Positions 1 through 62,304 of a stretch of DNA of 64,000 nucleotides are shown piece by piece. The position numbers and the translations under genes are program-made. A model generated the notes under the pieces. That model did no database searches and was not told the DNA's origin. It saw only the letters and a program-made list of their open reading frames with translations. The first letter of the stretch is position 1. The number at the start of each line of letters is the position of its first letter. This DNA is from Branchiostoma floridae (Eukaryota; Chordata; Leptocardii; Amphioxiformes; Branchiostomatidae), in assembly GCF_000003815.2 (NCBI RefSeq), contig NC_049994.1, forward strand, positions 17,291,476 to 17,355,475, given 5' to 3'.

Positions 1-3000
1 ATCTTCCTTAACATGATGATGATCTTCCTCAAAGACTTCTTTGGAACTCCTCAGCTTTCCCTCTGCAGAAAGGTAATAAGATGTCTTCTTCACACTGGTT
101 GCATCTTCTACATGATGTTTTTCGCCGTCTGGCTTTTCGTTAGCCTGACCTGGCACTTTGACACCGTGAGCTTTCAGGTGGGACTGGGCATGGGCGATGG
201 CGGCCGCGATAACGGCCTTACGTTTAGCCTTCTCCGCGGCAGCAGCTTTCTGGGAGAGCGTTTGCCTGACAGGTTTGACCTTGGTGCCTTCTCCCCTTTC
301 CGCATTCTCACGCTCCTTTTTGTCGTCATCTTCTTCTAATCCTTGCAAACGAATTATCGCAGGTTTTATCTTTTCAAGTTTGGTCACCGTCTCGTCGTCA
401 GGATTTTCTGACAGCAGATTTTCGGGATGGGGTGCCTTGTCTTCTTCCTCACTTCCCGTGTTGTCTAGGTCGTCTTGGTTGTCTTCGGACTCCTTAAAAA
501 TCTGCTCTTCTTTCTTGATTTCGTCCACTTGATCCTCAGGCTCCGCAACTGCCAGGTTCAGATTTTCGACAGGCTTTGGATTCTTAATTATAAACTGCGG
601 TCCATCGTCTTCTTCTATATTTTCTCCAGCAGCCTCCATTCCGTTACTTTCTTCATCTATGTCTTCCACAGTTCCTGACGCGCCGTCTTCATTTTCTTTC
701 CCTGACTCTTTCACAGACTTATCCTTTTTGATTTCGTCCACTGGGTGCCCAGGCTCTACCACTGCCAAGTTCAGATTTTCGACAGGCTTTTGAGTCTTAA
801 ACTGAGGTCTATCGTCGTCTTCTTTTATAGTTTCTCCAGTCTCCCTTTCACTCCCTTGTTCATCTACTAGTATATCTTCCACAGACCCTGACGTGCCCTG
901 ATTTCCATCCATGTCACCAGTTGTCTGTGCTACGTCGAAAGTTTCTTCCTTCTTCAGATCACTTTTATCGTCGTTCTGCAAGTGTTTACCTGCCTCTTCA
1001 ACAGTCTCTTCAGCTATCTTGGCCCTAATGACACTAAGAAATTCCGGTGGAACCATCTCCTTTGCTTCTTCAAGAGCCTCCTCTTTTTCTTCTTCAGATC
1101 CCCCCTTCATCTTCTTCACCACCTTCGCGACCTGCAGCATCCTCTGCATCAGCTGGACCCTCCTCGCGATGCTGTTTGCCTCCGCTGCCCCTACGTCATC
1201 CCTGTCTTCCTGTGGGACAGCTTGTGCTGTATCTGGTGACTGTGCTTGAGGAAGATTGTCCTTTTCCCGTGCGTGCGCTCGTTCTTCGACTTCGCGACGA
1301 AGCTTTGCTATAGCCTCCATTGCCAGCTCGGCTTGGCTTTTGCTTCCAGATTCCGAAACACCGATGTTTTCATTTGCCTCTGGCTCAGCGTCATTCTTGT
1401 CTTCCTGTTGGGCAGCTTGTGCTGTTCGAGGTGTATGATTGTCCTGCTCCTTTGCCTGCGCTCTTTCTTCGACTTCACGACGAAGCTTTGCTATAGCCTC
1501 CATTGCCAGCTCGGCTTGGCCTTTACCTCCAGATTCCGAAACACTAACACTGTCGCTTGCCTCAGCGTCGTTTGTGTCTTCCCCTTCGGCAGCTTGAGTT
1601 GTTTCAGGAGTAAAGTTGTGCTTTTCCCGTGCGTGCGCTCGTTCTTCCACTTCGCGACGTAGCTTTGCTATAGCCTCCATTGCCAGCTCGGCTTGGCTTT
1701 TGCTTTCAGACACCACCACGTTGATGTTTTCGTTTGCCTCAGCGCTGTCGGTGTCTTCCCCTTCGTCAGATCGATTTCCGAAGTCCTTGTTCTCTGATTT
1801 CTGTTCCGTTTTCGTGGTCTCTTCCTTGGACTGTAGCAGCTGGTTCTGGTTTCCAGCGCCTGCTTTAAATTCTGCCATGGTTTCTAGAATCTTGTTCGTC
1901 TTTTCCGCCTTACTATGACTCTTTAGTGGCTCATCCAATGTTTCAATCAGCCGCTCGCTGTCGACAATGCCGTTAACACTGTCTGTGCCCCCCGAAATTT
2001 TTCTTTCTTTCTGGGTAACTTGTCCTTCGCCCTTACTTGATCCATCAATAGCCATGTGCTTAAGATTACGTAACGCATTGACTTGCTGCAGAACATTAAA
2101 GACGTTGCCATCAGAACCTAGCTCGCCGTCTTGGCTTGGAGAGGCCAGGTCTTGTGCGATTGTAGAAGTTGGCGTAGAGTCGTCCTTGGTGATCTCTTCG
2201 CGTTCCTCCTCTTTGTTTTCGGACGTTGCAGACAGGTCTACAGCGTCCAACGATGTAGGCACCTGAGCATCTTCTTCTACACTAACAGTATGTTCCTCAA
2301 GCCCTTCAGCGGCCTCCATAGCATGCTTTATCGCTTCTATAACTTCAAGTTTCCTTTCTTCATTTTCAGGTGCGAGAGCCACCTGTTGGTTCTTAGCCTC
2401 TGGACTGGTTGGAGTACCTTGTGCCCGTTTTGCGATTGCCACTTGCTTCTTTATCGCTTCTGCTAAAGCTATTGCAGCATCTTCCTTGTTAGAAGATGTC
2501 GACTCCTCTTGGATGGCAGCTTTCTGAGCAGAATCTTTCTTGTTAACCTCTATGCGTTCTTTATCGTTGTTTTTGGAGGCTTTTGCGTTGTCAGAAGTCT
2601 CTTCAAGCCCTTTTGCCGCATTCATAGCATGCTTTATCGCGTCTAGGACTTGGCGTTCCCTCTCACCATTATTTGTTGTCAAAGCCCTTTTCATCTCTTC
2701 CGATGCCTTGGACGCCTTTTTCTCCACTTCTGCACCAGTCACACTTGCCTGACGCTCCTTTGCGAGCGCCATGGCCTTCATAATCGCCGCTAAAGCACCC
2801 GCAGGACCTTCACTGTTGGCAACAATCTTGGTGGCCTCGTCTTTCTCACCTGACTGGAGTATTATTTTCGGTGATTCTGGTCCTTTTGCTGTTTCTTTTG
2901 CTCGTCCGTGGTTTTCAGAGCTTTCTGTGTTCTCCTCGTCGCTGGAATGTTTGTCCTTTTTGGTCTCCGGGTGCAGCCGTCCAGACTGTCGAAGCCTCTC

Positions 3001-3402
3001 TCTCACAGGGGAGGGCAATGGAGGGTGTTCGGCTGGCTTTTCGGTACCCTTTTCAAGGTCACTTTTTGTTTCAAGGTCACTTGCTGCTTCATCTATCTTG
3101 GTCCTAATGGCGCTCAGAACTTCAGGTGGAAACATCTTCTTTGCCTCTTCAAGAGCCTCCTCCTTTTCTTCATCAGATCCCTCTTTCATCTTCTTCACAA
3201 CCTTCGCAAACTGTACCATCCTTTGCATCAACAGCATCTTCTCCGCAATGCTGTTTGCGTCGGCTGCCCCAGCGTCGCTCGTGTCTTCCCCTGGGGTAGG
3301 TATCGCTGTGTCCGGGGTAGGATCGACGATTTCGGCATTCTCTTCAGCCTGGCTGCTGGACTCCTTGGCTTGTTTCTTGACTTCCTTGTTTTCTTCGCCA
3401 AC
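1..3402 (-). CDS. Large partial exon: acidic Glu/Lys/Ala-rich repeat protein, function unknown
   Basis: Read on the minus strand, every triplet from 3402 down to 1 is open (1,134 codons), and the frame leaves the window without a stop. The exon start at 3402 follows a pyrimidine-rich tract ending in CAG (3403-3405); an in-frame TAA lies just upstream at 3424-3426, so a splice acceptor rather than a start codon is needed. The product is rich in E, K, A, D and S with few hydrophobics. It contains three copies of a roughly 60-residue unit with the core AELAMEAIAKLRREVEERA, two copies of a unit with the core AKVVKKMK plus EEKEEALEEAK, two copies of a unit with the core AIKHAM, and two copies of VENLNLAV. 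The helical, charged units suggest coiled coil or extended rod. I recognise no family. It may be the 3' part of the secreted gene upstream (4166-7359), since phase 0 fits, or a separate gene. Confidence 0.8.
1258..1800 (-). repeat. Three tandem ~60-codon coding repeats
   Basis: Three adjacent units of about 177-183 bp inside the large minus-strand exon share the peptide core AELAMEAIAKLRREVEERA followed by a charged tail and a TAQAA/ED linker. Unit spacing is a multiple of three, so the frame is kept. The units differ at several positions, so they are not a very recent expansion. Confidence 0.85.
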
Positions 3403-4165: not shown

Positions 4166-7100
4166 TTAAAGCGCGCCGCCTACCGGACGCGGTTGGGCGT
4201 GCACGCTCTCCTTGTGCTTCTGATGTTTGTGTACCCCATGTCCGGCTTCCATGCGGTCCTCCTCCTGCGTGTGCTGCAGACTCTGCTTCAGGCCCTTGTG
4301 GAGAGCCTCGCTGTGCTTCCCGCTCAGAACGCCTGCGGAAGGGTGCTATGGAAGGGGGGGGGGTGTATAAGCATATTTCAGACTCCCCACGTCGCAGGAA
4401 ATACAATGTAGACACTAGCCAATCCAAACCTTACGTTAATGAGATATCCCTATTTCTCAAATTGTAGGTTTTGACCGGCTAACTTAATATCTGGTGTGTT
4501 ATCTGCCTATTTCTAACGATATGTGGAAAGCTAAATTGAAAGAAATACAGAAAATCTAAGTTTCTTGACAAGTGCAATATTGTTTCAATCAGTAGTATTT
4601 TTGTCAAACTTTTCGTTCTTTCTTCAAATTTTGGTGGAATCAAATTTTTACAAAGCACAAACCTTATGTCCTTCTTCCCCCTCTGGTTCAACCATCGGTG
4701 CGTGTCCCTCATGGGCCTTGAAAAGAGGGAGGGGTGAAGAAATGTTAATCAGCAAGAATAGAGATGGAAAACTGATGACTTTAAAATCCTACCAACCATA
4801 GCTAGCTAAGGGGAGGTAAAAGGCTACCCTTACCTTGTCTGTACTCAGTATGTAATTGTACGGTATTGAAATAAGCTACAAACGTGAGTGTATTGCCAGC
4901 CTTCGTCTCAATGACAACTTCGTAATGCGAAACTTCCAGCTTGAAGGTCATGTGAAACGTGTTTACCTCATGTGGGCTCCCAGACTGCACCGCGTTGTGG
5001 CCCCTGAGGAAATCGGGGACCATTTCCGATGCGTCACTTCCGTCTTCTCGCGAGATCTCGCCCACGTGACGCATGACCTCCTGCATCTTCATCACACTGC
5101 TCACCTGACTCTTGCGTCCGTACCTGACGTGAAGAAATGACGTTTATTAGCTGATCACTGAGTTAGCCTGCTAGTCAGGTAGTACTGACCAGGTTAGAGT
5201 CACCAGTTATTAGCAGAGTTTAGGCAAATAATTGTTGTTTTTTGCTCAGGCAAATTATTCCTCCTAAACAAGGTCACACACCCAAAATTGACCTTGACCT
5301 TCTTCTTCCCAGCGCCTATCCACATACCAAATATCATTGCAATCCATCCACAAGTTCTAAAGTTATGCTGACCACAAATATCCGGAAACCCAAAGACACT
5401 GCAGACAGACTGCTACAATTGCAAGTTGATATAAATGATAGCAGAAATTCATTCAAGCCAGAAAGCCAGCCGACATGCCATGGTCTCTTAATTTTGTCAT
5501 TCATCCAGTCATTCGCTCATCCATCCATCGACACATTCATTCATTTTTCTGTGTAAAAAACGCCATTGAGTATCTGACCTTGAGATGTAACCTTCGACCT
5601 TCTGCTCCGGCTGCCGGAAGTGCTGTGACGACACCTTCTCCACGTCAGCAGGCTTCACTGCTATGACGTCACTTGAGATGGGACGGAGGAGTTTGCTCAG
5701 GACCGGGTTGCTTTGCTCGTTCTATTAATGTAAACAGATTGGATGTTTTCAGGCACGTGACCATGGCGTAATCTAGATATCATCTAGCGTCCGCCAAGTT
5801 ATGACTTTCCTGACATCATGACCAGTGCGTTCTAAATGACCTCGCGACGGTCCCGCCATCTTCGATCCGTCCATTCCACCAAGATGGCGGATTTGAATAT
5901 CACTAGTTATATCCGTTGGTAGTTTCTTTAGGCGGATAGATCATAGTGAATTAACATTTTATTGTACACTGCCATGTCTTTCTCCTGATGATTATTTCAC
6001 CATCCAACTACATTCCCAAGTGTAATGCTAACTCCCACCGCAATGTGATGCTGTTGTTCGTCTACTTGCACATCTATACAGCTATAGATCAATGCGTACA
6101 CAGATGTCATACAAAACGTTGTTGGGCATAGCAATATCGATCTTCGAACTCAGTAACTCGATTAATACCTTATGTTGTTTCTTCTTCGTCTTCTCTTCGT
6201 CGGCCTTCAAGTTTTGAGCGAGCTTTATGACACAAAGCAGCATGGAAAGAAATAGACACGAAATCAGTGACACTACAGAAATTAGAAAAGCTTAAGGGTT
6301 TGCAAATATGAATTTTTAAAAAAATAGCTCTTGCAATGTGACAAAACAAAAGTTAGGTCTAGAAGTCTTAACAATTTTATGTTCATATTCCACGTTCTGT
6401 TTTGTCTTGCCCATTACTTGATTGGAGTAGATTTAATTTTTAACAGTCCAAATTTTATTCGTTGTAATGTATCACACATTTCAACCTCAGTATAGGCTGC
6501 GATTTTACAACATAAATCATTTTTTCTTTTTCACCTTCTCCTCGACGTGTTTAGCCCAGTCCACAGGAAAGGTCTGCCTCTCCGCAGGGGGTTCGATTCC
6601 CGCCTTCTTCTCCAGAAACTTGTTCACCAGAGCTTTCTTCTGATGCCACTTGGGACCTGAAGGCGAAGGGACAGAAACAGCGGGTCGTGAGGATTTAGAC
6701 TTTTTCTACAAGTGAAATATTTTCTGAATCAAGCGGTAATAAAAGAGAAGGACCAAACTGGAAATAGAATAGAATGGATTCTGCAGGGCTACTAAGCCTC
6801 TAACAGTCACTCGTTGTCAGGGGATAATTTGTGACGATTGGGCCCTTCCACTGAAGGAGTTCTGGCCGTTTGAAGAGCTGCTAGTGGTCATGCTTGATCG
6901 GGTAAAGCGAAGGAGCGTGGAGTTCCGAGATTCCATCTTCCATAGAGCTGTTTCAAAAAAGCAACTCGAGAGACAGAGAGGAGAGAGAGAAAGTGAGAGA
7001 GACAAAACGTGAGAGAGAGAACGAGTGCGATGTATACATAGAGAGAGAGAGAGCGCGATGTAGAATGAATAACAGAATCGAAAGAACGCAAAACAAAGAA

Positions 7101-7359
7101 TTCATCAAAGATGTACGTCATGTATTGGACCACGGAACATATGGCTAGCACTAGAGTACAAATGTCACGGGACAGACCAACAGAACAACTCCCGGGCGAT
7201 CAATCTGGTTGGCTATTAGGATTAAGATCCAACTTTATATAATGCCACTACTAAAAAAAAGATTAAGTTTCTGTTGTGAAGAGACTTACTTTTTGGCCGG
7301 AGATTTGCCAATGTGCAGCTGAGAACAGCAGCCATCACGAGAAATATCCCCAACTTCAT
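4166..7359 (-). CDS. Small secreted protein, multi-exon, family unknown
   Basis: The start codon is at 7357-7359 and begins a clear signal peptide (MKLGIFLVMAAVLSCTLA). Exons on the minus strand are 7290-7359, 6535-6656, an optional 36-bp exon 6169-6204, 5579-5721, 4967-5123, 4663-4716 and 4166-4345 (TAA at 4166-4168). Each joint has AG/GT borders and the phases match (1, 0, 0, 2, 0, 0). The product is 241 aa, or 253 with the optional exon. After the signal it is basic (PKWHQKKALVNKFLEKKAG), then has a conserved-looking segment (KLLRPISSDVIAVKPADVEK), an acidic stretch and a His-rich C-terminus (HGVHKHQKHKESVHAQ). A TGA at 6517-6519 would end a 69-residue form if the donor at 6535 is not used. 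A weak donor at 4184 (CCG/GTAGGC) would join it in phase to the large exon at 3402. No family recognised. Confidence 0.65.
6169..6204 (-). other. Optional 36-bp microexon
   Basis: Twelve in-phase codons (ADEEKTKKKQHK) sit between an AG ending and a GTATTA donor. The neighbouring 54-bp exon (4663-4716) likewise starts with GCC and ends in CATAAG before a GT. Phase 0 at both ends makes it compatible with inclusion or skipping. The acceptor tract is weak, so this is tentative. Confidence 0.35.
6966..7061. repeat. (GA)n-rich simple repeat
   Basis: An imperfect GAGAGA tract lies in the first intron of the minus-strand secreted-protein gene. The short reading frames over it are repeat artefacts. 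Confidence 0.85.
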
Positions 7360-11640: not shown

Positions 11641-13151
11641 CAGGGTTGGACAAGTCCACTAGCCCGATTGTCCAGGGCAAGTGAAAGTGCTTATCGGGCA
11701 AGTGTATATCCTACCCCACTTGTCTGATCAGGCATGTAAGATTTATCCATGAGTGAAATGTTGATGTACTTTTTACCTTTAACAGTCATGGCATCAAGCA
11801 CCGGTCAACACAGAAAAAAGAGCCAATGATAAAAGAATTCCATTGCTGGAAATAAAAATTAATAGAAAAATGTCATTTAAATTTCGGGCAAGTAAAAAGT
11901 TGGTTTGGGCAAGTAATTGTTTTGCAGATTGCACCTCTCTGCTTGCAAAATGCAGTCGTTGCGTTATTTGGGGGTTGCAGGGGACCATCGCGTTTTCCCT
12001 AAGCGGTGAAAGTGCGTAGGTGCCGTTGGTGGGCCCCAGGTCACGTATATACTTACTCTATAGACAAGTGAATTTTAAAACTAGAAAGGCCGACATTTGC
12101 TTGAGAGCAAATACAGCATATTTCAGCCATCTCCCTCATGCAACAATAGGCCTTGAGGTCGTTGACCCCTTTGGCCATTGGAAAATGACCAAAAAAATCC
12201 CAAATATATCATTTTAAAGTGGTCCATGCAAAAAATTATACATGGGTCATTTGAATAGATATCTAGAGCACCCCTTTACCAATTTACGGGTCCTCACCTC
12301 ACCTCACCTAGTCCCATCCTCATCAGGAGGGTCGGGGACTATGGTTGCCTCCAGCACAAGTCTTAATTTACGGGTCATTAGGTTGTAAATCGAGGGAACA
12401 GGAGCCAAAAATGTCCAAATTTTGTCAAAAAATGGCCATAAAGTCGCAAAATTAAGCATTTTCTTGTACCGTATGGGAAAACTTTTATTGAATTTATGTG
12501 CATATAATTGAAGGGCACTTTTATACCAAATTTCAGATCATATGGTTGTAAAACGAGGCTACAGGAGCCAAAAATGTCCTTTTTTGGTCAAAAAATGGCC
12601 AAAAATCGCAAAATTAAGTATTTTGTTGTACCGTATGGGAAAACCTTTACTAAATTTATGTGCACATAATTGAAGGGCACTTTTATACCAAATTTCAGAT
12701 CATTTGGTTGTAAAACGAGGCTACAGGAGCCAAAAATGTCCTTTTTTGGTAAAAAAATGGCCAAAAATCGCAAAATTAAGCATTTAATTGCACCGTATGC
12801 CAAAACTGTTATTGAATCTAGGTGAGCATATGATCAAGGCACCTCTGTACCAAATTTCATGTCATTCGGCTGTAATACCAGGGTACAGGAGCCCGAAATA
12901 TACATACAAATTTACAAAAACCTCAATAAAATCATTTTAAAGGCAGATATGAAAAAATGAAAAAAAACACCTGGGGGTATTGGCTTACTCTACCTTTGTG
13001 CCAAATTTCAAGTCAATCGGTTAAAAAATGGCGGAGTTGATTCGATTTGAAGATTTGACAGGAGAAAGAAAGAAAGAAAGAAACATTACGAATACAATAT
13101 ATTTCACCATGCCTATGGTATGGCTGAAATATAAATACTTGTCCAACCCTG
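11641..13151. mobile_element. Non-autonomous hAT-like DNA transposon (1,511 bp)
   Basis: Perfect 15-bp terminal inverted repeats (CAGGGTTGGACAAGT and its complement) are flanked by a 5-bp direct repeat TGGTC (11636-11640 and 13152-13156). The CAGGG terminus is hAT-like, although classical hAT elements make 8-bp duplications. No transposase is present. The interior holds the 123-bp shared segment (11925-12047), a tandem array (12370-12900) and a short GAAA run near 13070. It lies in the BICRA 5' intron. Confidence 0.75.
12370..12900. repeat. ~162-bp tandem repeat inside the transposon
   Basis: The string CCGTATGGGAAAAC recurs at about 12469 and 12631, with a diverged form near 12792, giving a period of 161-162 bp. 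Shared blocks include CAGGAGCCAAAAATGTCC and GCAAAATTAAG. Unit-to-unit divergence is modest. Confidence 0.8.
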
Positions 13152-13241: not shown

Positions 13242-16200
13242 ATGGTCATGGAGGATGGAAGATGCCTCTTAGACGTGATAAAGTGAGTAACGCTGCCAGT
13301 ATGATCGTTCCTAAGATCGTTCAATATCAGTTTTTGTTCTTTCAAACCCCCTTCCAGAAAAAAAGGTTTCAACCTTACTGGAAATCGTACAAAGCAGCGA
13401 GAAAACATGCCATATGATATATTGCAAATATCCAAAAATGGAAACTGATGTCATAGAGTCAAAGAATAAGATGTGTAAGGACATGAAGAATGTATTGTTT
13501 GGTGGTATACATGTAATATTCTGTGTGTTTATTCAGTTGTTCAACCTTCCTGGCCACTTAGATTTCAAAAGGCAACTTTTTTTCTTCTTTGTAAGCTCGT
13601 ATCAGTTTTTGGGTTTCCAGAGAATACCATCCATATGATTAAGTCAACATGGCCTGATGATCATGGCCTTTAAGTTAACTAACAATGTGTTGGTATAGAA
13701 GTTCCCATTGTTGTTTTTATGTTTCATAAGGTATGGACGTGGGACAAATCATTGTAACTACTTGAGTCTTTTCATCCTCTTCTCTGCCGCCTCTGTGTGA
13801 TAAAGATTAAATGATGATTTGTTTGACGTTGTATGTTCACTTCTGTGCCCTTGACAGTGACCCCCAAGCCCTGAACGAGTTTATGCAGAATGACGACCTC
13901 AGCGGAAATGGACAGGTAGGGTTCTACGTTTACATTGCCATGACAACCGGGGCACTCGCTTTTTTAAAACTTAAAAGTAGCAATACCCAAGAGATTTATA
14001 CGAGTTGACAATACATATAATTTGAATTGAAATCATCTACAGTTTCAACATTTCTCGATTTATCATGACTAGACATTCAAGAACATTTTCGAAGTAGCTT
14101 TAAGTTGTTTTTAGAATCTTAACATTAAAATTGTCAAGATTATATACTAATCTGTAGCTCACAGCTATATTGTACTAACAAAATTTGGATCTCATACTGT
14201 CGATCATGTTGACAACGTGTGCGAGCAAACATGCATACGTACGTTTTTTTGTTCATTTCTGTGTTATAAAGGCCCTTATCTAAAAATAATACTCTGATGC
14301 ATTGTGAGATTTAATGACCAATCTAACAGGAAAAAGTCTAGCCTGGATGCCAGACTGTTTCCAGGGCATACACAGTCCAGCTCCTCGGCTCCAGGGCCAA
14401 CATGCCCCCAAGAAAATGTTACCACAGACACCCAGAAGTTAGGCCACAGCCCAGGAGTGTCTATTGTAAAATATCCTTGGGGACTTGTTGGTCTTGGCAC
14501 TGTGTAGCTTGCCTGTGTAGGCCCTGGAAACAGTCTGGCATCCAGGCTGACTTATTAAAAATAAAAGTTAAACCCCCCTCTACAATCTTTTCTATTTTTT
14601 GTTTTAGAGAGAAGTCTTCTGAATACTGGGTGAGTTGTAGTGGGTATGGTTAATACTGGTACTGCGTGGAGTTGGTTTGAGTTTACTTAGAAGGTCTTCT
14701 GTAGCTTGTCTGACTCTTCTGTTGGTTGCACTGATTAGAAGCATAGAAGCAACTTCTGAGTTGAGTGGAATCCCTAGGAATAAGCTCCTGGATATTGACT
14801 TTTTTCGTCAAGCAACATCTATTGTAGATGAAACAATCTCTTTTTGTAAGTGCATGGTAGAACTGAACTTCAAACTTGAAGACTGTTTTCAGTACCCGGA
14901 ACAACTCACAGTATTTTGTTCTCCTGTCTTCACTGCTATACTTTTGACTGGCATTCACTGACTTAGTTTTGTACTAATCTTTTTACTCTTAGGTCACACC
15001 AATTGAATTTGTTGGTTCCCAGATTTGTAAACTGAAAAGTTAAAAAGTTAAACCCTTCCCGCGCCAAGATGGCGCATAGGGTGGTGCCCATCTCTGTTTC
15101 ATTAGCCTTGGGCCACACACAACGCAATCACAACAGCAGGTGGCTAGTCCACTGGCAGTGGTGTGTGTTCAACTTCCATACTGTTTCCCGAATGCTGAGT
15201 GCTAAGCAGAGGAAGCAGCATGTACCATTTTTAAAGTCTTTGTAAACTGAAAGGCTAACTTGAAAACAGAGTCTGAGGACTCAGTCTGTACTTTGGTACA
15301 CACAGTTTCAGTGAGCGAATACAATCAGAAGCAGGGTTGTAGCCAGGCTTTTAGCCAGACATGCGTCAAGAATAACAAGAAATTTGATGCCCCTGGACGC
15401 CCTTACACTAGGAGAAAATCGTCTGACAGGCATGAAATTCTGATTGACCAGGGATGCTACCAGGTCATCTGTGGTCACAGGTATTTTTGCCTCTTGGGAT
15501 ACCTCAGAATGCACTTTTTTTTACTTAAAATCATCAAAAACTCTGCACCATGGAAGGTGGATGCCACCGGACCCCCTACAATAGCTACTTAGGGACTCAC
15601 CAATAAGTTTGGACTCCCTTTTATAAAATCCTAGCTAAAAGCCTGGTTGTAGCCAGGGTGAAATCATTTTCAGTCCCCTCGATTTTGAATGGAAATCCTT
15701 TCAACTGCCGAAAGTGGAGAAGTCACACGACTTTGCTAGGGGGGTCCAGGGTCCCAGACCATCTGCAACACTATGCATTTTGAGGTGTAAATTTTACTGG
15801 TAGACCTAAAGCTGTTCAATGGCATCTGTTTTGGTGAAGAATTACACAAGGTTTTCACTTTTTTATATCTTAACATATCAATTTTTGTCCGTCACAGAGG
15901 ACGGAATATGCAATTTTTTCCGTCCCCAGCTGCAAAATTCCGTCAAAGGATGGAAGGACGGATGCTGGCTACAACCCTGATCAGAAGCCATGATATTCGT
16001 GCACATGAATGTTTGAAGAAGTTTTCCTCCCAGCCCTCTGTTTTCATGTGTGGGCCTCTCTCTTGCTAATTTTATACTTAAAGATGTCTCAGAACCAATG
16101 AAATTGGATGGTGTGGCCATAGCATGTTTATCATATTAGCACAGAAAATAAGTTTCCCTTTAGATCACACCGTTCTCTATTTACCACAGGTGCAGGAAGC

Positions 16201-19200
16201 GAATACCGTGGGGGGAACACAGCACACTTTTGTGGCAAGTCCAGTCCAAAACAGTAACCAGTCCACCAATGAGAGCCAAGGAAATGTCGTCATGGCCACC
16301 TCATACGGCCACCTGGTGCAGAAAACGACGCAGAGCATCACTCCGCACCAGGGACAGAATGTACTACAGCTTGCCACAGGCCAGGCCTTTGGTAGCGGCG
16401 CCACCATGCAGCCCTTCCGGGTACCGCAGGGAGCGGTGCTGAGCCAGGGCAATGTGGTGGTGCAGCCGGGCAGCTTCGTGCAGGGGGCGGTCTCCAATGG
16501 GAGTTCCGGGTCACAGGTCACGCCCGCCCCCAACAGAACACTGCAGCCCCAGTTTAGCTCGCTTGCCAGAACTCAAATTGTGCAACAAAACACACCGCAA
16601 CAGAGACATGCTGCCGCACAACAGCCCTCGAGTTTTCAGGCAGCGTTTGAGAAAGCCATGCTGGCAAATAAGACCAAGAGCAGACAGCCACAATCGCAGC
16701 AAGCTGTTGCCCAGCAACCGAATTTGAACCCACCAATCCTGCAGCAGAACAGCCCACAGCAAGTTTTGCAGCAGCCAATCAGCCAACAGCATCTGCAGCA
16801 GGCTTTTTCCCAGCAGCCCTTGGGGCAGAACATTTCCCAGCAGCCCTTGGGGCAGAACATTTCCCAGCAGCCTGTGCAGCAGAATATTTCCCAGCAGTCT
16901 GTGCAGCAGAATATTTCCCAGCAGTCTGGTGTGGTTCAAACTATGAATTCTGGGAGTTTGCAGCAGAACGTTGTTGGGCAGGGTGGCACAAAAACTATTT
17001 CCTCGCTTCAGGTAAGGACATTGAAAGTTGATTGCTTTTTACAGAGTGATACAGCAGATTGATATAATGCACATTCTTGATCCTTGATCCATGATGGGGA
17101 AAAGGCTTGGATGAAATTGACATTGTTTTGTTATTGAGAGTTTTTTCAACATGTTTTGGTACCACAAATTTTTGTTAGCATTTAATGAGGGTCACACTGA
17201 TGCGTACCATAGACCTGCTTGGAAAGTCCTTGTAAAATAATTAGGCCTGTTTTGATGCAATATTTGTACTTACTTTTCAACAGCTTCATAAGAATTTTAA
17301 GTGTCTTTGCTTTTGCAATTAACTTGGTCATTCTTCCTCTTTCGGACTGAATGTATCTTGCATAGTTATCTCTGTGATAAGGTAGTATGCCTAACTTGTT
17401 TCATTCCTAGATTCTAACAGTAAAGGTACAGAGTTTTTTTAAGTTGAAGCTGATTTTGAAATATTTTCGTCCCTTCTCAGGCGTTGCACAACTTGAACAT
17501 CGTCTCCCACCCGTCTGTCCAGTCTAGCAGCATCTCCATGGCGATGCCGACTGTTTCCACGGCAACGGTCGCATCCGCCGGGCCGCGCACGGTCCACATC
17601 CAGCCCAAACCGCCCGTGGCGATATCCCCGAAACTGTTGCCCGCGTCCTCGCGACCGCTCGTAAACATCAGTCCGAAGACTTCTCTCCCCGGATCACAGA
17701 CAGTGCTGCTTCAGGGGGCGAACGCTCAGGGAGTCGCGCCCAACATCAACATCGCTAACCTGGTGACCTTGCCGGGACTCCGGGCACCGCAGGGGGTCTT
17801 AGTCCAGGCGCAGTCTCTCGCGCAGCGGATAAGCAATGTGCAGAGAGTACCGATCACCACGACAACGCAGGCAAACGTCACACCGCCGCCACAACAACAA
17901 CAACAACAGCAGACCGCAAGCCCGCAGACAAACATTCTGTTACAAGCCGCTCAGCAGAGTAATCTGATGCCATCAGGGCCGGTTCAGAACGTCATGCCGA
18001 CGAATAGTGGCGTTCCGCAGAGTAACGTGCTTCAGCAACATGGCGTAACGCTAGTACAGCGAGCGTCTCCGGGCGTGGCCAGCATGCCCCAGCAACAGCA
18101 GTCCTCTGTTCCAGTGCAGATCGCACCACAGGCGGGAAACCTGCAGGGCCAGGCTCCCGTCTACATCACCTCACAGTCGTCTCCTTCTAACTTACAACCC
18201 GCGCAAGCACAGCAGCTCAGACCTGTCACATCCCAACAACAACAACAACAACAACAGCAGCCGAGTAGTAACACGAGCAGAACGAACCTCGCAGCGCTGT
18301 CCATCGCACAGCAGATCCAAGACCAGGCCGCAGCACAGAGCCGGAGCGGACAGGTGATTATGTTGTTGGCATGGAATCCCAATTAGTGGATCGAATTTAT
18401 AGTGTTGTGATGAAATATTTACAAGTATCCTTTTTGATATTAGAAGAATCCACATATATTGTAAATACCCAAATTGTTGGATTTCTCTTCTCGTGCAATA
18501 TTGACATGCAATATTTTAAACTGCAATATTGGTAGCCATCATTTACTGTATTAAGTTTTAATCTTATTCTAAATAACAGAATACAGTAATTCTTCACTTT
18601 TCAACCCTTTTATACTGTGTTGTAGTGCGTATATAATGATATCCATGTAAATGATCACTGCAATTCAGTCCTATGACTGCAAGAGTGATATTTTGTTTGT
18701 GATATCAATGTCAAATTAACCATTCATCAATCACAGGCTGCCATCATCCCACAAAACCTTCTTCAGAAGGGCGCGAAAATCCTGCCGGCGAACGTGGCAC
18801 AGCAGCTGCTGCAGCAGCGAAAGCTGTCAGACCAACCACAGGGCGGCGCGGCGAGTCCGCAGATTGTCGCAGTCAACACTTCTCAGCCTGCCTCCACCGT
18901 TACCACGGTTACAATGACAACAGTTCAGACGACGGCGGTCCAGCACTCTGTGACAACAACGTCATCTCAGCCGCAGGTAAATACAACACGTTAAACTGTC
19001 CTCAGATAGTTTCTAATTAATGACTCTTTTTACACAGCCATTGCTTTATTCTCACCGACGTTTCGGTGACCGTCTGTCACCTTCTTCAGGGCAATGAAGA
19101 AGATGACAGACTCTTTATACACGTTTAAGCTGTGTACCTAAACAACTTTCAGGTACAGTTTCAAGTACAGGTACAGATATAGATAGGTGTATTTAGGCAC

Positions 19201-22200
19201 ACAGCTCGATAACAGTAACACTTACTTCAAGTAGTACTTGTACCTATATAATACCTACCTGTAAAGTTGTAATTGATCTATTCAGGGTCTCACTTTAGGA
19301 GCTCTGGTCAAGCCAGTTAGATAAGTTGTTTCGCTGATTTGAAAAAAACAAAACTGTTCAACTAGAATACCAACAGGCAGAGGCAGAAGTCTATACCTTA
19401 GTTCAGTTTCAGGGAGGGAGTATACTCAGATTGTTCTTCCCATTCCTTTGTTTTCACAGCAAAATTTTTCACTTCAGACTGTACATAAACCAAGGAAAAT
19501 TCCCTAATGAACATTGTGATTATGATGCTGATTAGGTTTTGGTGATTATGATGATGACAGGTTTTGGTGACGACGGGCGCGGGAGGGCAGCCCAGACTGA
19601 TCGTGACCCTGCCCCAGCAGCCACTGCCTCCCCAGTTCCAACAGAGAGAGGAGAAGAACATGCAGCTTTATCAGCAGGCACTCCGGATACAGAAGGAAAG
19701 GCAGCTACAGCCAGGAGTGTCAGCCTCAGGACAGGTTTGTTTGTTTGTTTGTTTGCTATATCAGCAGGCACTCCGGATACAGAAGGAAAGGCAGCTACAG
19801 CCTGGAGTGTCAGCCTCAGGACAGGTACTACTACTAGTCTAGTATTATCATCTTGGTATTAGGTTTTAACTTAAGTGCGCCCTGTTGAGAGACACAGTGT
19901 TTTGTACAAAGATACTCTAGATGTTGAAATGTTTGTGGTGTTTTAACATTTAACATTCGCAGTTTTCATGGTGACTTATTGACTGGGAACTTAAAGCAGC
20001 GGCAAAAATGCTTCTATTGCCTTCTGCCTGCCCACCGTCTTGTTTCAAACTTGACTTAAAACCATTACAAACTTTGCATTTACAGTAGCCTCATCATAGC
20101 TTCTTACATTCAGAATGTTTTTGTTACATTATTTGTCCAAGAAAAGATTCTTTTCTTTTTTGAGGGTAAAGAGACATTGTTGTTTGCTTCCACAGATGGC
20201 AGGTACGACCATCGTGACCACACAGGTGCAGTCTGGCCAGCAGCAGGGCCTGTTGGTTCAGCAGCAAGGCATGATGGGACTGCAGCAAGGCATGATGGGA
20301 CAGCAGGTAACGTCTGCTGGGAGCCAACAAACCATTCAGCTGAGCACGGCAGGTCAAGGGTCAGCAGGGCAGAATTTCATGGGACAGCAGGTACTGTCTG
20401 GTGTGGTGCAGCAGCATGGCATTATGGGGCAGCAACAGGGCATTGTGGGTCAACAGCAGGGCATTGTGGGTCAACAGCAGGGAATTGTGGGACAGCAGCA
20501 GGGAATTGGTGGCCAGGTGCAACAAAGCATTGTGGGCCAGCAGCAGGGCATTGGTGGCCAGTTGCAGCAAAGTATTATGGGACAGCAGCAACAAGGTGTC
20601 ATGAACCAACAGCTGCAAGGCATTATGGGACAGCAGCAGCAAAGCATGGTGGGTCAACAACAGCAGCAAGGCACTATGGGTCAGCAGCAAGGCACTATGG
20701 GTCAGCAGCAAGGCACTATGGGTCAGCAACAGCAGGGAATGGTGGTGCAGCAGACGCAAAGAATGCTGGGTCAGCAACAGCAGGGCATTATGGGTCAGCA
20801 GCAGCAAGGCATCTTGGGTCAGCAGCAGCAAACTATTGTGGGCCAGCAGCAGCAAGGCATTATGGGTCAGCAGCAGCAGGGCATTGTGGGCCAGCAACAG
20901 CAGCTAAACCTTGCGACCCCTCCCCAGGTGACCTCCGGCCAGCCGTCCCCGGCAAAACCCGTGGCGCCGCGGGCGATTGCTGTCAGCAGCCCGCAGCAGC
21001 CCATCGTCACACGGGCGGCCGCGGGGCAGACACAGGGCAGCGCTCAGGTAGGTTCCAATAAGCATGGTCATGGTCCCTACTGCACAGTTGCAGCAAGATG
21101 CATTGTGGTTGGTTAACATGTCAATAGTGAAGGCTGCTGTCTTGTATTACCCACAATGGATGCACATGCATAGTTGGAACCAATTCATTGTTTTTTTTTA
21201 CAATTTATACAGTCATGATAGTTTTATGCACCTAGTTCTGCAGAAATATCTACATGCACTGGTGCACCCACAATGAAAAATAAGATAGCTGCAGTTTTTG
21301 GTGCACAAAATTCAAAAGTGCACAAAAGAAAGTCATACATCCAGTATTTCAAGCCCTTTTTCATTATCATATTCTTGTTTCCTGACGAGATGCTTCCTAA
21401 GCCTTTTTGTCCGCCGCTGTTTCTACAGAACCCTACAGGAGTGACAGTTGTGAGGCAGCCGGTCACCTTGAATGTCCAACAGGGAAAACAGTTCATCACC
21501 CTAACCCTTCAACAACAACAGCACCTCGCAGCCATACAGGCTAAGGTACTTTCTCATCAATCAGTTCTGTGTATTTTTTTTTGCATTATTGGGTGGGCCA
21601 GGTACTCTCTCTTCGCAGTCGGGCTGAAATTACAATATGAATCAGGCTTTTAGCCAGGCAGGTAAAAAAATAGCACAAATTGTACACCCTTACACTGGGG
21701 AGCAGATCCTCTGACAAGCATGAAATTCTGATTGACCAGGGATGTTACAGGTCAAATGTGGCCTGTCTGACAGTAAATTTGCTTCATTCCCCCAAATTGC
21801 AACTCAAAATGTGGGAAATGGTGTTTCAGAGAGTTAGAAATTTAAAAATTTTCTAAGTGAGGATGTCCCCAGGCCCCCTTCAATACTCGCGCCTGCAGCG
21901 CTCGCCGAGCAGCAAGAAATTGGACACCCTTTAATAAAATTCTAGCAAGAAGCCTGATATGAATGGGTCAAGTCACAAGGGTCTGGAGCGGCTGCCTTTC
22001 TGCGCTTTTTCAGTGATGCCCCATGTGCAGTCTTAGGGCTGCAGGTTTTGGACTACTCAAAACAGGAAGGCTCCTAACTCTTTTCGATAAGTGTGGTGGG
22101 ATTTTTAACATGGTGCGGCTCCTCCATTTAACATCCTATTTGAGGGTTGTCCACGGCCAAAGTCTGGTTGGTGTGTCAGATCATGACAAATGGTAGAGTG

Positions 22201-25200
22201 GCTAAGCTAGCGGACTTGATTTTTGTGACACACATGTAGTTGTCTGTGATCATGGGGAATTGTGTTTTTTGTTGCATGTTACTCTTGCCTCCAGGAAGAA
22301 TGGTTGAAATTTTGACTGTTAAAACTTCCTTGTATTTTCCCCCTGCAGCTGAGGACGATAGTGACACCTGGCAAGCAGCTGTCCCCGCAGGAGAAACAGG
22401 TGGTTCAACAGCTGCAGGTGTTACAAAGCCGCATTCTTCAGCAAGCCAAGGCACAGACCCAGGCCCTAGCCCAGAATGCAGCAGGGCAGGCTAGCCTAGC
22501 GCAGGCTGCACAGAAGATGACTCCTATCGCCCAGAAGCCTGCGGCTCCGGCCTCCACACAGGCACAGGGACAAGGTAGTTTCTTCTGTAGATTTTTAGCC
22601 TCTACCTGTGGATTAGGTCGGTCAGTTTGTGGCCAATAGAACTCAAGGACTTATCTATACAATAGGGTGCATTTAGGAAAAAAGGAAATAGATTTTGAAA
22701 TAGTTCTGAATTCAGATGATGTTTCAACCAATGTAAAATAGTTGGAACATTGGAATATTACTACACAACATATAGTGAGCTATCAGTATCAGTCACATTA
22801 TTGTTTTTCAAAGTTGTGTTGAACTTATCTGAAAAGTGCAACCTTCTTGATTGACATGTGACAATTTTGATTGACATAGAGTGATTTGGTTGACAGGTAA
22901 CTATTCTGATTGTCATTTTAGTGTTTTGATTGACAGCCAAGGGTTTTGATATAGAGCAAAAGAGATCAGAGTGTTTTTATTGAAAGCTGACTGTTTTAGT
23001 TGACAGTTTATTGATTTGATTGACAGCTGACTATTTTGATTGACAGGCACGATCCAGCAGCAGCGCCAGCAGCTGAACGAGCTGCTGAAGACCCAGACTC
23101 AGGTCATCCGCACGACCCAGGGGTCAGGGGTCACCAGCGTTGTTTCGGGTTCCACCAGTGGAGCGACAGGGCAGCCCACTCTAGTCAAACTGCAGCCACA
23201 GGGGGCACAGGTGGGTTAGTGGTCAAGAACCTGTCGTGTTCAGGTTACCTGAGTGGCGCTTTATTGTAAGCTCCTCGCAATTCAGCCCCTGGCTGTGAAG
23301 AGAGAGTAGTTGGCCCGACCAATAACAAGCTGATAGGGAAGAAAGTACTTCTAGTAGTTTTACACGCTCAAAATCTTAAAAGGTGTGATGTCATAGTATA
23401 CGCTATACTGATTTTGTTTATGTTGAAGAATCTTCAACCCATTTTGAATTCATGAATTCTTGGTCAAGCTGCAACATCCGGTCGTCCTTGCGTGGTCTCC
23501 CATCCAAGAACTGACCGGGCTTCGCGTTGCTTTTCTTCAGAGATCAAGGGGATCGGGTGTGTCGACGCCCCACACGGCCATAGCTTTCAACCCAGTGTTA
23601 TACCAAATGGCATTGATTTAACCTCTGTGTCTCCCCTTCAGGGTCCTGCAGCAGTTATCCAGCTGACTCCGCAGCAGAAGGCGACCCTGCAGCAAATCCA
23701 GCAGCAGCTGAAGACTCTGTCCCCGCAGCAGCAACAGCAGTTCCTTAAACAACAGCAGCATCTTATCCTGCAGCTCAAGAACAGTAAGGTAGGGGGCTCT
23801 GTCACATATACGCTTCACACACACACACACTACACCGCAACAGCAATAGCAGTTCCTTAAACAGTAGCAGCATAATATCCTGCAGCTCAAGAACAGCAAG
23901 GTAGGGGGCGCTCATAAACAGACAGTATGCACACAGTACAGATATGGCAGATAGACACATGTTGTCATAGAGAAAAAGTACAGTGTTGAGGATCAAAAAC
24001 ATCACTACCTCATAGTTGTCAAGTCTTCCTGCAGCTCATGAACAGCAAGGCAGGGGGCACTGATAAACAGCCATTTGAGTGCTCCGATGAATACTAGCTG
24101 CTGCACGGAATATGTCATTAGTAGATGAGTAAGTCTTGTTGCAGTTCCAATAAAGATTGCTTGCCTTGAAGTCAAAAGCTCACCTAGACACTGAGGAAAC
24201 TTTCTTGTTCAAAGAAAACAATGAACAGTAGTATGGGTTTGTTGTTTTCCCCAGATTGCCACCAGTCCCAAACAACAGCCTGTGCAGGTCAGTGTTCTAA
24301 CCAGGATGATGTTTCTGTTGTTGTCCCCAGATCGCCATCAGTCCGGCTGCCCTCAGCGCTGCGAATGCGGGTACCGCGGCAACGGGCGTGGCAGGGCAGC
24401 AGCAGCTGGTCACTGTCCTCAAACAACAGCCTGTACAGGTAAAAATAAAGTATATTATCAGGCATCAAACATCTGCATGTAAGGGAACTAGAGCTGTGTA
24501 CCTAAACAATTTCAGGTACAGGTACAGGTACAGGTACACGGGTTTAGGTACAGGTCCGGACCTTCACCTGTACCTAAAAAAGTTTAACCAAGTATATGTA
24601 AGCCAAATATGTAGCTAACTGTCTTTTCTAGTGATAAATTGTCATCTTTTTATGGGGAATTACATATTTGAATCTCAAAACAATTTCTTTGCAAGTTTTC
24701 TTAAGTTTCAACTGCAAGATTATCACCATTGTCATTGTTGATTTGGGATTTACTTGTCCAGTAGTCTTAAAAAGTAGTGTTTAATAGTGATTTAGTTTGT
24801 TTAGGTACAGGTACAGGTACACAGATGTTTAGGTCCGGACCTGTACCTAAAATTTTTAGGTACGGTACAGGTACGGGTATTTAGGTACACAGCCCTAAAG
24901 GGAACCCAATACACCTATCAAAGGTGTTATTCCAGATTGTATTTCTCGGTACGGCCAAGAATATTCCTCGTGCTCCATACAATTTGCAGTGGTGTGCCTA
25001 AATTCTTGCTGGTGTGCCTAATTTTTCAGGGTCGGTAGCATAGTCAGTCTGGAGCCCAGCTATGACACCATTTTGAATTTCGCACTGTCATCGAATTACG
25101 TTACAAATGTCTTCCATGTTGTTGCTCGATTATTGAATAATGCTACCCTTTCTTGTTACACTTTCACTGAGTGATGTTACACCTTGACCAAAAGTTGTTA

Positions 25201-28200
25201 CACCTTGCTTGAATGTTGCTAAGTGATGTTGTATGTTTGATCCAGACTATCGCAGGGAAGTTGGTCCAGTCTGTTGGCATCAAGAGACCAGCACCACAGC
25301 CGCTGTCTAAATCTGACCTGTAAGTTATCATTGAGTTCTACACAACTGTTCTTGAACAAGAAGCTTACAGGGCTCAAAATTTGTTTCTGGAAATACATAT
25401 TATTAAAAGGATGATCATAACTTTCCTTTAGGTGTACTAAGAAAAGAAATTGGTGAATAGAGTAGAATGTCAGCACAACCTAATTACAAATCTTACTTTG
25501 CAATTTCACAGCTAACTTCAACATTGTAAACAAGTAGTGCAAAATTTTGTTTTATTTTCTGACAGTTAAAATAACTTAAATGTCAAGTATGTCAGTACTG
25601 GTGTATAAAGGACCTTTCTCAGAGAGTAATTTTGCATTTTACCCTGACTTGTGCGGGCATGCAGAAAAACATTTCAACCCTGTATTTCAAACAGATGGTA
25701 GATTAATATCAACCATAGTGTTAATGCCAGTGTTAGCATTTTTCTGCAATGTATTCTACCAAGACAGATGAACTTTCATGCTAATATTGACCATGTTTGT
25801 GATGTTTCACAGCATTAAGAACAAAGGGAAGCTAGACCAGCAAGGCTGCCTGAAGCCAGACTACAAGACACCCTTCAGAAATAAGGAGGACGCCATCAAG
25901 AGACTCCTACCCTTCCACATCCACATGACAAGGGACATAGAGGACAAGGAGATAGACAAAGGTATATGGTAGTAAACTTTGCACAGGGGCTTGTAAATAA
26001 TCTCCAAGCAGACCCTACGGTAGCATAAGATACTGTAAATGCAGAAATGTTCGCGGTGGATTAGTGTTCGCGGTTTTCGCGGCGGCCGCTTCACCGCCGC
26101 TTCACCGCGAATTTAAAACCACTGCGAACATTTTTCCATAACAGTAAGAGACTACAGTGCATGGTGCTACCGCGAAATCAAAACCACCGCGAAAAGTCCA
26201 TTTTCCCGCTACCGCAAAATTAAATCCCCGCGAACTTAAATGCATTTACAGTACTATCAAAAGCTGCCGGTGAAGTGAGGCTGCTTAGGAGTGTCAAATG
26301 GACACCTCTTGGCTGACTACACTCCTTGACCAGTTTAGTACTTTCTTATGCCATCATAGCATCTGCTTGGAGAATACTTGTAAATAACATGCTTTTGAGA
26401 AGCAAACAAAGGAAATATTGTGCTACCTTTTGATTGTATGTAATGATGATGAATGACAATAACTAAGCACTGTTTTCTTATTAAATAATGCTTTTTTGCA
26501 AGCTGTGGTCCAAGTTCCAAACTGGCTACCGTGTTCATTGTGACGTCATAAGCTTTAAAGCGACGGTGTTATTTAATCATCTGGATTACCCTGAAACTCA
26601 GAAGCTAGAACTTCGTATCTGTTTCGATGGTTTGATGTTTAATAACATTAGAAGACTGTGTATTTTTGTGTAAACATTCAATATTTATCAAATGATACTA
26701 TTCTTGTTACAGATAAGGAGAAAATGTTGTACTCTGGTGTCTTCTACAGTTTAAAAAGGCTACCTTAACTTTTCTACATGTATGATGCTTAAGTTACCTA
26801 TCCTAATTGTGTTTTGTTGTACTGTTGCAGCTGAGGTGACGTTGGACACAGTTTCCCAGTCCCTAGTGGAGAAGTACCACAAGATGAGGGACAAGTATCA
26901 CCATCTCCTACTGCAGGAAAGCATGGTTAGTGGGATTCTATTTTATTAGTAATCAGGCTTTTAGCTAGGATTTTATTACAGGGGGTCCAAATGTCTTGGT
27001 GGGTCGCGGTAAGTAATACAGGCATAACTATTGTAGGGGGTTCAGGGGCATCCACCTTCCATGGTACAGATTTTTAGAGAATTTTAAGTTAAAATGGTGC
27101 ATACTATAGTATTCTGAGGGGCAAGATTTCGATTAGAGAGGTCACAGTTGAAGTTACCTAGTAACATCCCTGGTCAATCAAAATTTAATGCTTGTCAGAG
27201 AATCTGCTCCACAGTGCAAGAGCATATAGTGTGTCCAATTTCTTATTATTGTTAGAACAGCAATGTCCACATGATGCTTGTATTTAGAGGGAAGATATGT
27301 TCCTTGTCTTCTGCTTGTTTGTTTGGTGTTAACAAAATGAAGATGATTTTTGCTCTCAAGACTGATATTCATCTGCATGTTCCAGAGGACGGACCCGTCA
27401 GCTGAGATGGTGATGTTGTGGAGGATTTTTGTGCACGAGGAGAAGTCAGCTCTGGCACAGGAGAAGAAACTCGCTGTGGAAGGTGCTAACGGTGAGAGGA
27501 TTTAACCCTCGGCCTCCTAAGGAAACTATTTGGCACCAGACTTCTATTGGTTATAGGGTTAGGCAGTAGGGAAAGGGTTAAATCTCATTATTTGGTTTAT
27601 GTTCCTGCAAGGGAATTTTTGCTTGATCATTGTGCATAACACAGCAGTGCTGGACACAATGTACCAAAGATAGAATGTTTTTAAAAAATACTTAGTTTAA
27701 TGAAGCGTAATTCTACCAATATATAGGTCATGACAGATGCTATGTACAGTTAATCTCCAAGCAGATCCTGCAGTAGCATAAGATAGTATCAAAAGCTGCC
27801 AGTAGAGTGAAGCTGGGCTAGGAATGTGTTTAACTCCCAGAGGCTGAGGACTCCCTTTGGCCAGCTGTACTCCTTAGCCAGCTTTGATACTATCTTATGC
27901 CACTGGTAAAACTGCCTGGAGATTAATGTACAGTATTTACAGGTAAATTGTACCGGGGAAATTCCCCTAGCTCTTAACGACAAGCTCAGTGGACAGCGGC
28001 TTAACGTCCTGTCCTAATCGAACTCATGGCGTCTGGTTCCAAAGGCAGAGCCTCTAACCAGTGGACTATGCATGCATCTGTATGTCAAATAATCCAACAC
28101 ACTTATCGAGAAAAGTAGGGGTGATTGGCTCGCCATAGTAGACCCAAATTGCACCACCACTAGCTGCTTCAAAAAGCATCATGCTTCACCTGAATTGAGG

Positions 28201-32100: not shown

Positions 32101-32196
32101 TACCCAGCTGTTTACGCGGCTAGCTAGGCTTCCCGGAGCGAGCGTTAGGTTTAGCAGCGTGCACATGTCCACAACTCCTCGGGGCCACGCCGCATC
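29141..32196. other. BICRA 3' UTR and intergenic region
   Basis: AATAAA hexamers at 29331-29336 and 29969-29974 are candidate BICRA polyadenylation signals. No reading frame in this stretch has exon borders or a recognisable product. There is a short G-run near 31485. The distal part should contain the esterase promoter. Confidence 0.6.
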
Positions 32197-43507
<11,311 letters not shown>

Positions 43508-46830: not shown

Positions 46831-47370
46831 TCACGCCTGCTGCGGCCGCGGCCACCAGAACACGACGTCCTCCCCTCTGTGACGCACCGACGCTCGCTTG
46901 TTCCCGAACCCGCGCTTGGCGTCGGTCACGTCAGCTTCGTCCCCTCCTTCCGCCTGGCTGCCGTATCTCATCAGGTCCGCCAACCCTTCCCTCTCCGCCT
47001 GGTGACGTAGCCGCTCTACCAACTCCTGCACTGCGGCGTACCGCTCGTCCTCAGCCGCCCGTTTGTTCCCGAAGCCCCGCTTGTTCCCCATGCCACGCTT
47101 GTTGCCGAACCCCCGGGCGGATAAGGCGTGCGCGTACGGCGCCCAGGCCTCCTTCTTCCCGAAGCCTCTCGTCTGGAACCCGATGCCCAAGTCGTCGGGC
47201 TCGGTCGTCGACTGACCGAAGTCGGCGGCGAAAGTGTCGTCTGCGCCGCTGATGTCGTTACCATGGTGATCAGACGACAGGAAGGGCGGTTCGTACAGCG
47301 TTTGGACCGGGCTGCTCTCGGAAAGGTGGAGCGCCACGCAGCCGAGGAGTAGTACTTGTAACAGCAGCAT
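46831..47370 (-). CDS. Achatin-like neuropeptide precursor (GFGN/GMGN tetrapeptides)
   Basis: This 179-aa frame starts at 47368-47370 with a signal peptide (MLLLQVLLLGCVALHLSES). An acidic spacer follows, then repeated tetrapeptides between basic cleavage sites: RGFGKK, ARGFGNKR, GMGNKR, GFGNKR, and after a 45-residue spacer KRGFGNKR. Known achatin-type peptides are four residues beginning Gly-Phe (in molluscs with D-Phe), acting through a G-protein-coupled receptor. GFGN fits that pattern. An AG directly before GTAAGGATG suggests a spliced non-coding first exon. A dibasic KK after GFG gives one variant peptide. The long spacer could also be released. The family call rests on the tetrapeptide pattern. 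Confidence 0.8.
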   Translation of the reverse strand: MLLLQVLLLGCVALHLSESSPVQTLYEPPFLSSDHHGNDISGADDTFAADFGQSTTEPDDLGIGFQTRGFGKKEAWAPYAHALSARGFGNKRGMGNKRGFGNKRAAEDERYAAVQELVERLRHQAEREGLADLMRYGSQAEGGDEADVTDAKRGFGNKRASVRHRGEDVVFWWPRPQQA

Positions 47371-47582
47371 CCTTACCTGGAGATCAACAAGTACCTTTTA
47401 GGCTAAACGTCACATTTCCAAACCATTAGGTGGCTTAAGTTGGTGCTTCAAAAAGCTACGGAGCATCTGAACGGTCCAAAATGGTCGTATGTCAACCAAT
47501 ATATCATTGAAACACAACAAAAGCACACGGCTATCCTATCTTACTGGAAATATCTTCTCTCTGATCTCAGAACGAGTCACAA

Positions 47583-51300: not shown

Positions 51301-51798
51301 TCTGTAAAAATCTGGGGTGAAAGCGATGGACACGTCACAGTATCTGCCTGGAAAAATGACGGTCTAGAAGTAGAATTTATGTATTGAGACGTTTTACCGC
51401 GGCGCTTATGATATTCATATGCTTTTGTCTGCGGGTTCAAAAAGCAAAAACAGCACTTCTTTTCTGACATGTTGGAAGTTGTTTTAAACGATACGATGGG
51501 GTTTTCCCTGAAATAGACAAAATTCTAGCGGCATTGTTCTGTATTCCTAAAATAGCTACTCGGTTAGTATTTGTTTCACTATATCTGATTGGCTGGAAGA
51601 CAGCAGCGTCAGGATGTAATGACCAATCAGAGCAGAATGGTGTGGCTCTGTCACTACATTGACAAATTGCATCATTTAGGCCAGTTATATCATCAATTTT
51701 GTGTCATGAATTGCTACATATTTTTGGCCATATAGAGGGCTACTAAAATACATGAAAACGTTTTCATTCTTTTTTGTTTCCAGAAAAAAACACGCCAC

Positions 51799-62024: not shown

Positions 62025-62304
62025 GTGAGTCATAAGGATATGTTTTCCCTTCACAAGTAGAGTAGAGCACCTACAGCGGTGTCTTAACACTCAGCTGGGT
62101 TTTCTTCTGAACGTACCGTCCAGGCTTAAGGTTCACACCTGTCCTGTAATATGCATGTGACCTTCGTCAACAAGGTTGCGCTTTTGGGTCCGTGTGTTTG
62201 TGGAAATTACTCATGTAATTTTTTAGATTTTTGACGTAGCGTATCAGAGCACGGTAGCAACCAGAGAACAGTGCCTACATAAAACAATGCAAGTATGCAT
62301 AGCA

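Follow-up and report, generated by a model that had tools for sequence, protein, structure and literature searches.

The window (the whole stretch of DNA that was analysed, 64,000 nucleotides, C16:17291476-17355475 of the Branchiostoma floridae genome) contains part of a very long open reading frame on the minus strand. Reading from position 3402 down to position 1 there are 0 stops over 1,134 codons, which confirms an observation made in the preliminary description of this DNA. That description also had the exon running off the window, and it does: the frame continues for another 732 coding bases beyond window base 1 before a TAG closes it (C16:17290741-17290743), giving a full last exon of 1,378 codons. 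A good acceptor sits just before the start at 3402 (TTTGTGTCGTCAG, cut before G), and upstream of this acceptor the frame is closed by a stop 7 codons on, without a start codon. As a chance control we used 1,000 order-1 Markov sequences of the same composition, 4,137 nt each, and their longest open frames had a mean of 133 codons and a maximum of 279. The stretch without stops belongs to an animal gene with about eight exons, of which it forms the last. It had been called a hidden exon; it is a true coding exon, but that account of the gene was incomplete because, in our model, upstream coding exons between 7359 and 4184 belong to the same gene.

Seven small exons lie upstream of the long one on the minus strand (7359-4184), all with GT/AG ends and spliced in phase, with intron phases of 1,0,0,2,0,0,0. 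They were found by a scan of that strand, inspected by eye and joined by a script. The codon model used in this first scan had the long exon among its training data; the one used for the chain search and for scoring the gene model was trained outside this gene only. The exons of the model are:

7290..7359, minus strand: exon 1, with the ATG, the predicted signal peptide MKLGIFLVMAAVLSCTLA and NLRPK; ends in phase 1, with A before the donor GTAAGT
6535..6656, minus strand: exon 2, rich in lysine, phase 1 to 0; from splice sites and codon score, also in the chain search
6169..6222, minus strand: exon 3, 54 nt, phase 0, optional and the weakest of the model; skipped by the chain search
5579..5721, minus strand: exon 4, phase 2 at its end from phase 0 at its start; from the exon scan, also in the chain search
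4967..5123, minus strand: exon 5, phase 2 to 0, with a weak likeness to copy 2 of repeat D (see below); also in the chain search
4663..4716, minus strand: exon 6, 54 nt, His/Glu-rich; also in the chain search
4184..4345, minus strand: exon 7, His-rich; also in the chain search
1..3402, minus strand: last exon (8), of which 1,134 codons are inside the window; the rest (732 nt and TAG) extends to C16:17290741

The best chain of exons leading into the 3402 acceptor scored 90.7, and the best of 60 shuffles scored 41.7. The chain search recovers exons 2, 4, 5, 6 and 7 exactly. It adds a 42-nt exon at 4875-4834, skips exon 3 (6222-6169), and prefers start exons at 7843-7806 and 7707-7667 over our exon 1. 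On the same measure our eight-exon model scores 81.1 (81.2 when exon 3 is removed), so that the best chain outscores the model with the signal peptide by 9.6. We kept exon 3 as a putative choice because it is in phase and has a similar composition.

Exon 1 reads MKLGIFLVMAAVLSCTLANLRPK, which resembles a signal peptide, with a cleavage site that is our own reading. Its coding score is -3.8 and its donor 9.7 bits. We looked for first exons with a basic residue at positions 2-6, a ten-residue hydrophobic core, small residues at the cleavage site and a donor of at least 8 bits, a rule that was fixed only after exon 1 had been seen. By this rule, no first exon other than exon 1, on either strand of the 64-kb window, combines a start like a signal peptide with a strong donor, and when the 2 kb ahead of exon 2 were shuffled, 0 of 400 shuffles yielded one in the needed phase. 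For these reasons we prefer it, again as a putative choice. Going by the sequence, we consider it very probable that this is a protein-coding gene and that its product is secreted.

The window also holds several other features, which we list here as side observations:

12375-12893: tandem repeat with a 162-bp unit, 3.2 copies
16082-29140, plus strand: frames rich in glutamine that probably make up one multi-exon gene, with GQQQGIM-type tandem repeats at 20402-20902
33097-33444: tandem repeat with a 189-bp unit, 1.8 copies
33804-34757, plus strand: fragment of a Pogo/Tigger-type transposase (CENP-B_N, HTH_Tnp_Tc5 and partial DDE_1), lying between frames at 32155 and 38313 that match carboxylesterases
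46831-47397, minus strand: frame like a neuropeptide precursor, with a signal-like leader and repeated GFGNKR units; no Pfam match
51736-55113, plus strand: a Toll-like receptor in a single open frame (1,125 codons), in which Pfam finds LRR repeats and a TIR domain
61484-62032, plus strand: frame with a domain like agrin NtA

The glutamine-rich frames recall BICRA/GLTSCR1, and the two of them that were tested gave no Pfam match. The GFGNKR frame agrees with the GFGN achatin that is reported for B. floridae, and also for other animals, in the portion of PMC6188537 that we drew on.

The model product of the long gene has 1,632 amino acids, or 1,614 residues after an assumed signal peptide of 18 residues is removed. 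The mature chain has a pI of 5.3 and a mass of 177.7 kDa. The only cysteine of the 1,632 residues is inside the signal peptide, leaving the mature chain cysteine-free, and the model protein has 2 tryptophans and 5 tyrosines. We agree that the protein is highly charged, as first proposed: D, E, K and R make up 36% of the mature model, and the in-window part of the exon has 256 acidic and 159 basic residues. Calling it acidic fits the middle of the chain (residues 601-1300 have a net charge of -88), but not all of it, as the last 132 residues (1501-1632) have a net charge of +22. Residues 19-82 have a net charge of +8, and the overall net charge is -0.04 per residue. This segregation of charge is more than expected by chance, with the variance between blocks matched in 18 of 2,000 shuffles. 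Thirteen of the 44 histidines fall within residues 179-254, which are encoded by exons 6-7 and the end of exon 5. The basic tail carries KRRPMKRRRT, and the C terminus is RRRT.

A disorder prediction had been suggested in the preliminary description. By the charge-hydropathy line, 89% of 51-residue windows score as disordered. The same description spoke of modular helical repeats. These words suit the short segments that look amphipathic (24 separate 18-residue windows are helix candidates, in a scan run without a shuffle control), but with that much predicted disorder they do not suit a folded helical-repeat domain. The model predicts a large secreted and mostly disordered chain, built of duplicated short helices and acidic linkers.

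Internal repeats fall into five families, which we call A to E. The copies inside the window are:

3064..3330, minus strand: repeat D copy 1, 89 aa
2566..2703, minus strand: repeat C copy 1 (IKHAMNAAKGLEE)
2260..2397, minus strand: repeat C copy 2 (IKHAMEAAEGLEE)
1216..1776, minus strand: repeat A, a row of 3 copies, each about 60 aa, that share an identical 20-residue core, QAELAMEAIAKLRREVEERA
985..1251, minus strand: repeat D copy 2, 89 aa, 62% identical to copy 1
454..834, minus strand: repeat B, 2 copies with a 71-aa period, KPVENLNLAVxEP...VDEIKK
13..99, minus strand: repeat E copy 1 (SYYLSAEGKLRSSKEVFEED)

Repeat E has two copies near the C terminus with a motif like YxLS...KLxSSKE, the second of them outside the window. 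There is possibly a third, weaker copy, for which the two pair tests were matched by 0 and 10 of 1,000 shuffles. As a control for the repeats we used 60 locally shuffled sequences, in which the best 22-residue window scored 51. Eight of the nine repeat matches are above this score, and the ninth, a short secondary match of repeat B, is below it at 48. Repeats A and D have a linker in common. This is probably what was meant in the preliminary description by duplications nested in each other, and the word was fair. The likeness of exon 5 to copy 2 of repeat D was matched by 2 of 1,000 shuffles and its likeness to copy 1 by 164 of 1,000; a possible common origin of exon 5 and repeat D is weakly supported.

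We compared the copies of families A-D, leaving out E, for signs of selection. All six comparisons gave a dN/dS of 0.39-0.48, where the three comparisons within A are not mutually independent. When the ungapped segments of A1-A2, B, C and D were pooled, 77 of 226 changes were synonymous and 56.2 were expected under a null that preserves the observed types of substitution; none of 2,000 trials reached the observed count. The excess is clear for D alone (11 of 2,000), and taken singly A1-A2, B and C fall short of the 5% level (170, 123 and 250 of 2,000). The short A1-A3 stretch, which has 2 synonymous changes and 0 others (85 of 2,000), did not enter the pool. Nothing can be concluded from gaps between the aligned copies, because these are protein alignments and the gaps are whole codons by construction. 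From the dN/dS values together with the pooled synonymous excess, the repeats seem to have diverged as protein-coding DNA that was kept under mild purifying selection.

Within Pfam, NCBIfam and PDB, searches for relatives support the earlier statement that the exon matches no known family. Neither the in-window 1,134 residues nor the whole 1,378-aa exon had a match in Pfam, the whole exon had none in NCBIfam (a prokaryote-centred library), and the in-window 1,134 residues had none among PDB sequences. Residues 1-367 of the model gave three sub-threshold matches in Pfam, the best being DUF6800 (E 0.077, 13.6 bits, with a cut-off of 25), which we rejected. We also searched for second copies in the amphioxus genome itself (513,431,437 bases in 431 contigs). 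A protein search with the long exon found none among the best 22 and 19 candidates scored, and the 254-residue N-terminal part gave seven matches, each to one of its own exons on C16, among the best 10 candidates scored. The D unit gave 108 pattern matches in viral contigs, none of them a relative. Among the open-licence papers listed for amphioxus granins or secreted proteins, the titles and the starts of abstracts held no account of this gene or of an amphioxus granin, and the portions of PMC5787515 and PMC4992253 that we drew on held nothing informative on it.

Our preferred reading, to which we give a probability of roughly 45%, is that the protein is a condensing or cation-buffering scaffold, a polyampholyte of the secretory pathway. 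The mature chain, as modelled, is basic at its N terminus, then His-rich, then acidic over a long middle part, and it ends in a strongly basic tail. Short amphipathic helices, many of them duplicated internally, could serve as sticky points between charged linkers. In the late secretory pathway, which is acidic and rich in calcium, or in the extracellular space, the carboxylates and histidines would be titrated or would bind cations, and the helices and the oppositely charged ends may then cross-link the chains. The protein would condense with falling pH or with cations into a granule or an extracellular matrix, and the condensate might hold cargo or ions, as with chromogranins. Duplications would make the chain longer and add sticky points. 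A granule is only slightly favoured over the extracellular matrix. The preliminary description had suggested a structural, matrix or cation-binding protein. The predicted signal peptide, the lack of cysteine in the mature chain and the predicted disorder are in keeping with this, and the role itself is putative. Several results go against parts of this reading. With a net charge of only -0.04 per residue the protein is less acidic than a classic calcium sponge, and there is no enrichment of the marks that are typical of processing in granins or of phosphorylation in matrix phosphoproteins. The lack of a Pfam granin match, the other start preferred by the chain search, and a synonymous excess that is clear singly for D only also count against it.

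The same signal peptide, repeats, charged disorder and cysteine-free mature chain would fit equally well with a protein of extracellular matrix or mucus, secreted constitutively, whose charged disordered chain hydrates or cross-links material such as the notochord sheath, gill bars or cuticle. The 11 Ser-Gly pairs (7.0 expected) could carry glycosaminoglycan chains, but 90 of 1,000 shuffles have as large an excess, which is therefore not significant. N-glycosylation sites number 4 against 8.1 expected, there is no adhesion or matrix domain in Pfam, and the model protein has no RGD. We regard the matrix as possible and on the whole somewhat unlikely. Another use for a signal peptide would be in a precursor of many small peptides, either hormones or host-defence peptides. 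In such a precursor the acidic linkers would serve as spacers, and the peptides released would be the amphipathic helices between them, some of which are cationic in part. A few KR/RR sites do adjoin helices. The counts tell against it: dibasic sites (42 observed, 41.9 expected from composition), KR/RR pairs (14 and 11.9) and amidation-type sites (3 and 2.3) are all at about the level of chance, the model protein has no furin-type R-x-[KR]-R site, and three conserved RR pairs are inside the best-conserved helix core and not at its edges. A prohormone or neuropeptide precursor of the usual kind would have repeated peptides flanked by dibasic sites, which this protein does not show, and we judge a peptide precursor in general to be quite unlikely.

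If the true first exon is elsewhere, the protein could instead be a charged coiled-coil or scaffold of the nucleus or cytoplasm, with the KRRPMKRRRT tail as a nuclear signal. The chain search, with its higher-scoring first exons at 7843 and 7707 (by 9.6), points in this direction. We still think it very unlikely, given an exon 1 that is unique in 64 kb, has a 9.7-bit donor in the right phase and was matched by 0 of 400 shuffles, by a rule set post hoc. That the frame is non-functional, either a relic or a stretch left open by its composition, is hardly credible when its 1,378 codons are set against the maximum of 279 in the 1,000 simulations, and when the repeats have a synonymous excess and the splice sites are coherent.

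Reading the long exon as the tail of a predicted secreted protein narrows the range of its possible functions. If the condensing scaffold is right, the amphioxus repertoire gains a large disordered secretory protein that is selectively maintained, and the gene could show how secretory scaffolds grow by duplication of short helices. It is a long shot that an invertebrate chordate possesses a chromogranin-like granule scaffold of its own, giant, cysteine-free, repeat-built and cargo-condensing. Such a scaffold might have an independent origin or might be an unrecognisably diverged counterpart of vertebrate chromogranins. If true, the origin of the vertebrate scaffold for regulated secretion could be tested in amphioxus. 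Otherwise the gene is of ordinary interest.

Among known systems, calsequestrin and HRC are calcium-store proteins of the reticulum that have acidic disordered parts. The amphioxus protein has acidic stretches and a His/Glu-rich part in a predicted secretory protein as well, but it has a basic tail, ends in RRRT with no C-terminal ER retention signal, and has no match to calsequestrin in Pfam. SCPP/SIBLING proteins and Starmaker are also secreted, disordered and charged. SCPP genes have short exons at the 5' end and a long final one, a layout that the amphioxus gene shares. As a rule, the introns of SCPP/SIBLING genes are all phase 0 and S-x-E (Fam20C) sites are enriched. The amphioxus model breaks the phase-0 rule at two introns, and its 20 S-x-E sites (17.2 expected) are at chance, which argues against an SCPP-type phosphoprotein; on these two points we put this reading low. 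There is also no Pfam match. Amphioxus is not known to mineralise.

The granins (chromogranins A and B, secretogranin II and VGF) are a further close comparison. An N-terminal disulphide loop is a feature of chromogranins A and B, and granins are much shorter chains. The amphioxus protein differs in that it has no such loop (its sole cysteine belongs to the signal peptide), no more dibasic sites than chance would give, internal duplications and a strongly basic C-terminal tail. The Pfam model Granin PF01271 had no match up to E 10, with HMMER filters on, in residues 1-367 or the 1,378-aa exon. We do not claim granin membership because of the lack of a Pfam match, of a cysteine loop and of enriched cleavage sites. 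A search of the genome with PF01271 was empty, but control genomes also gave no match and absence is not implied; the secretogranin V/7B2 model PF05281 matches this genome at its cut-off (25 bits, E 0.004). What is shared is a signal peptide (rule-based in our case), an acidic pI, a largely disordered chain by prediction, Glu-rich charge and candidate amphipathic helices. In chromogranin B and secretogranin II a single long exon encodes most of the protein, and this is also true of the amphioxus gene. In the portion of PMC9526250 that we drew on, chromogranins are described as largely disordered, with pI values of 4.58 and 5.03, and as condensing at the acidic pH of the trans-Golgi network and recruiting cargo. 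By this analogy, the scaffold would most likely work like a granin.
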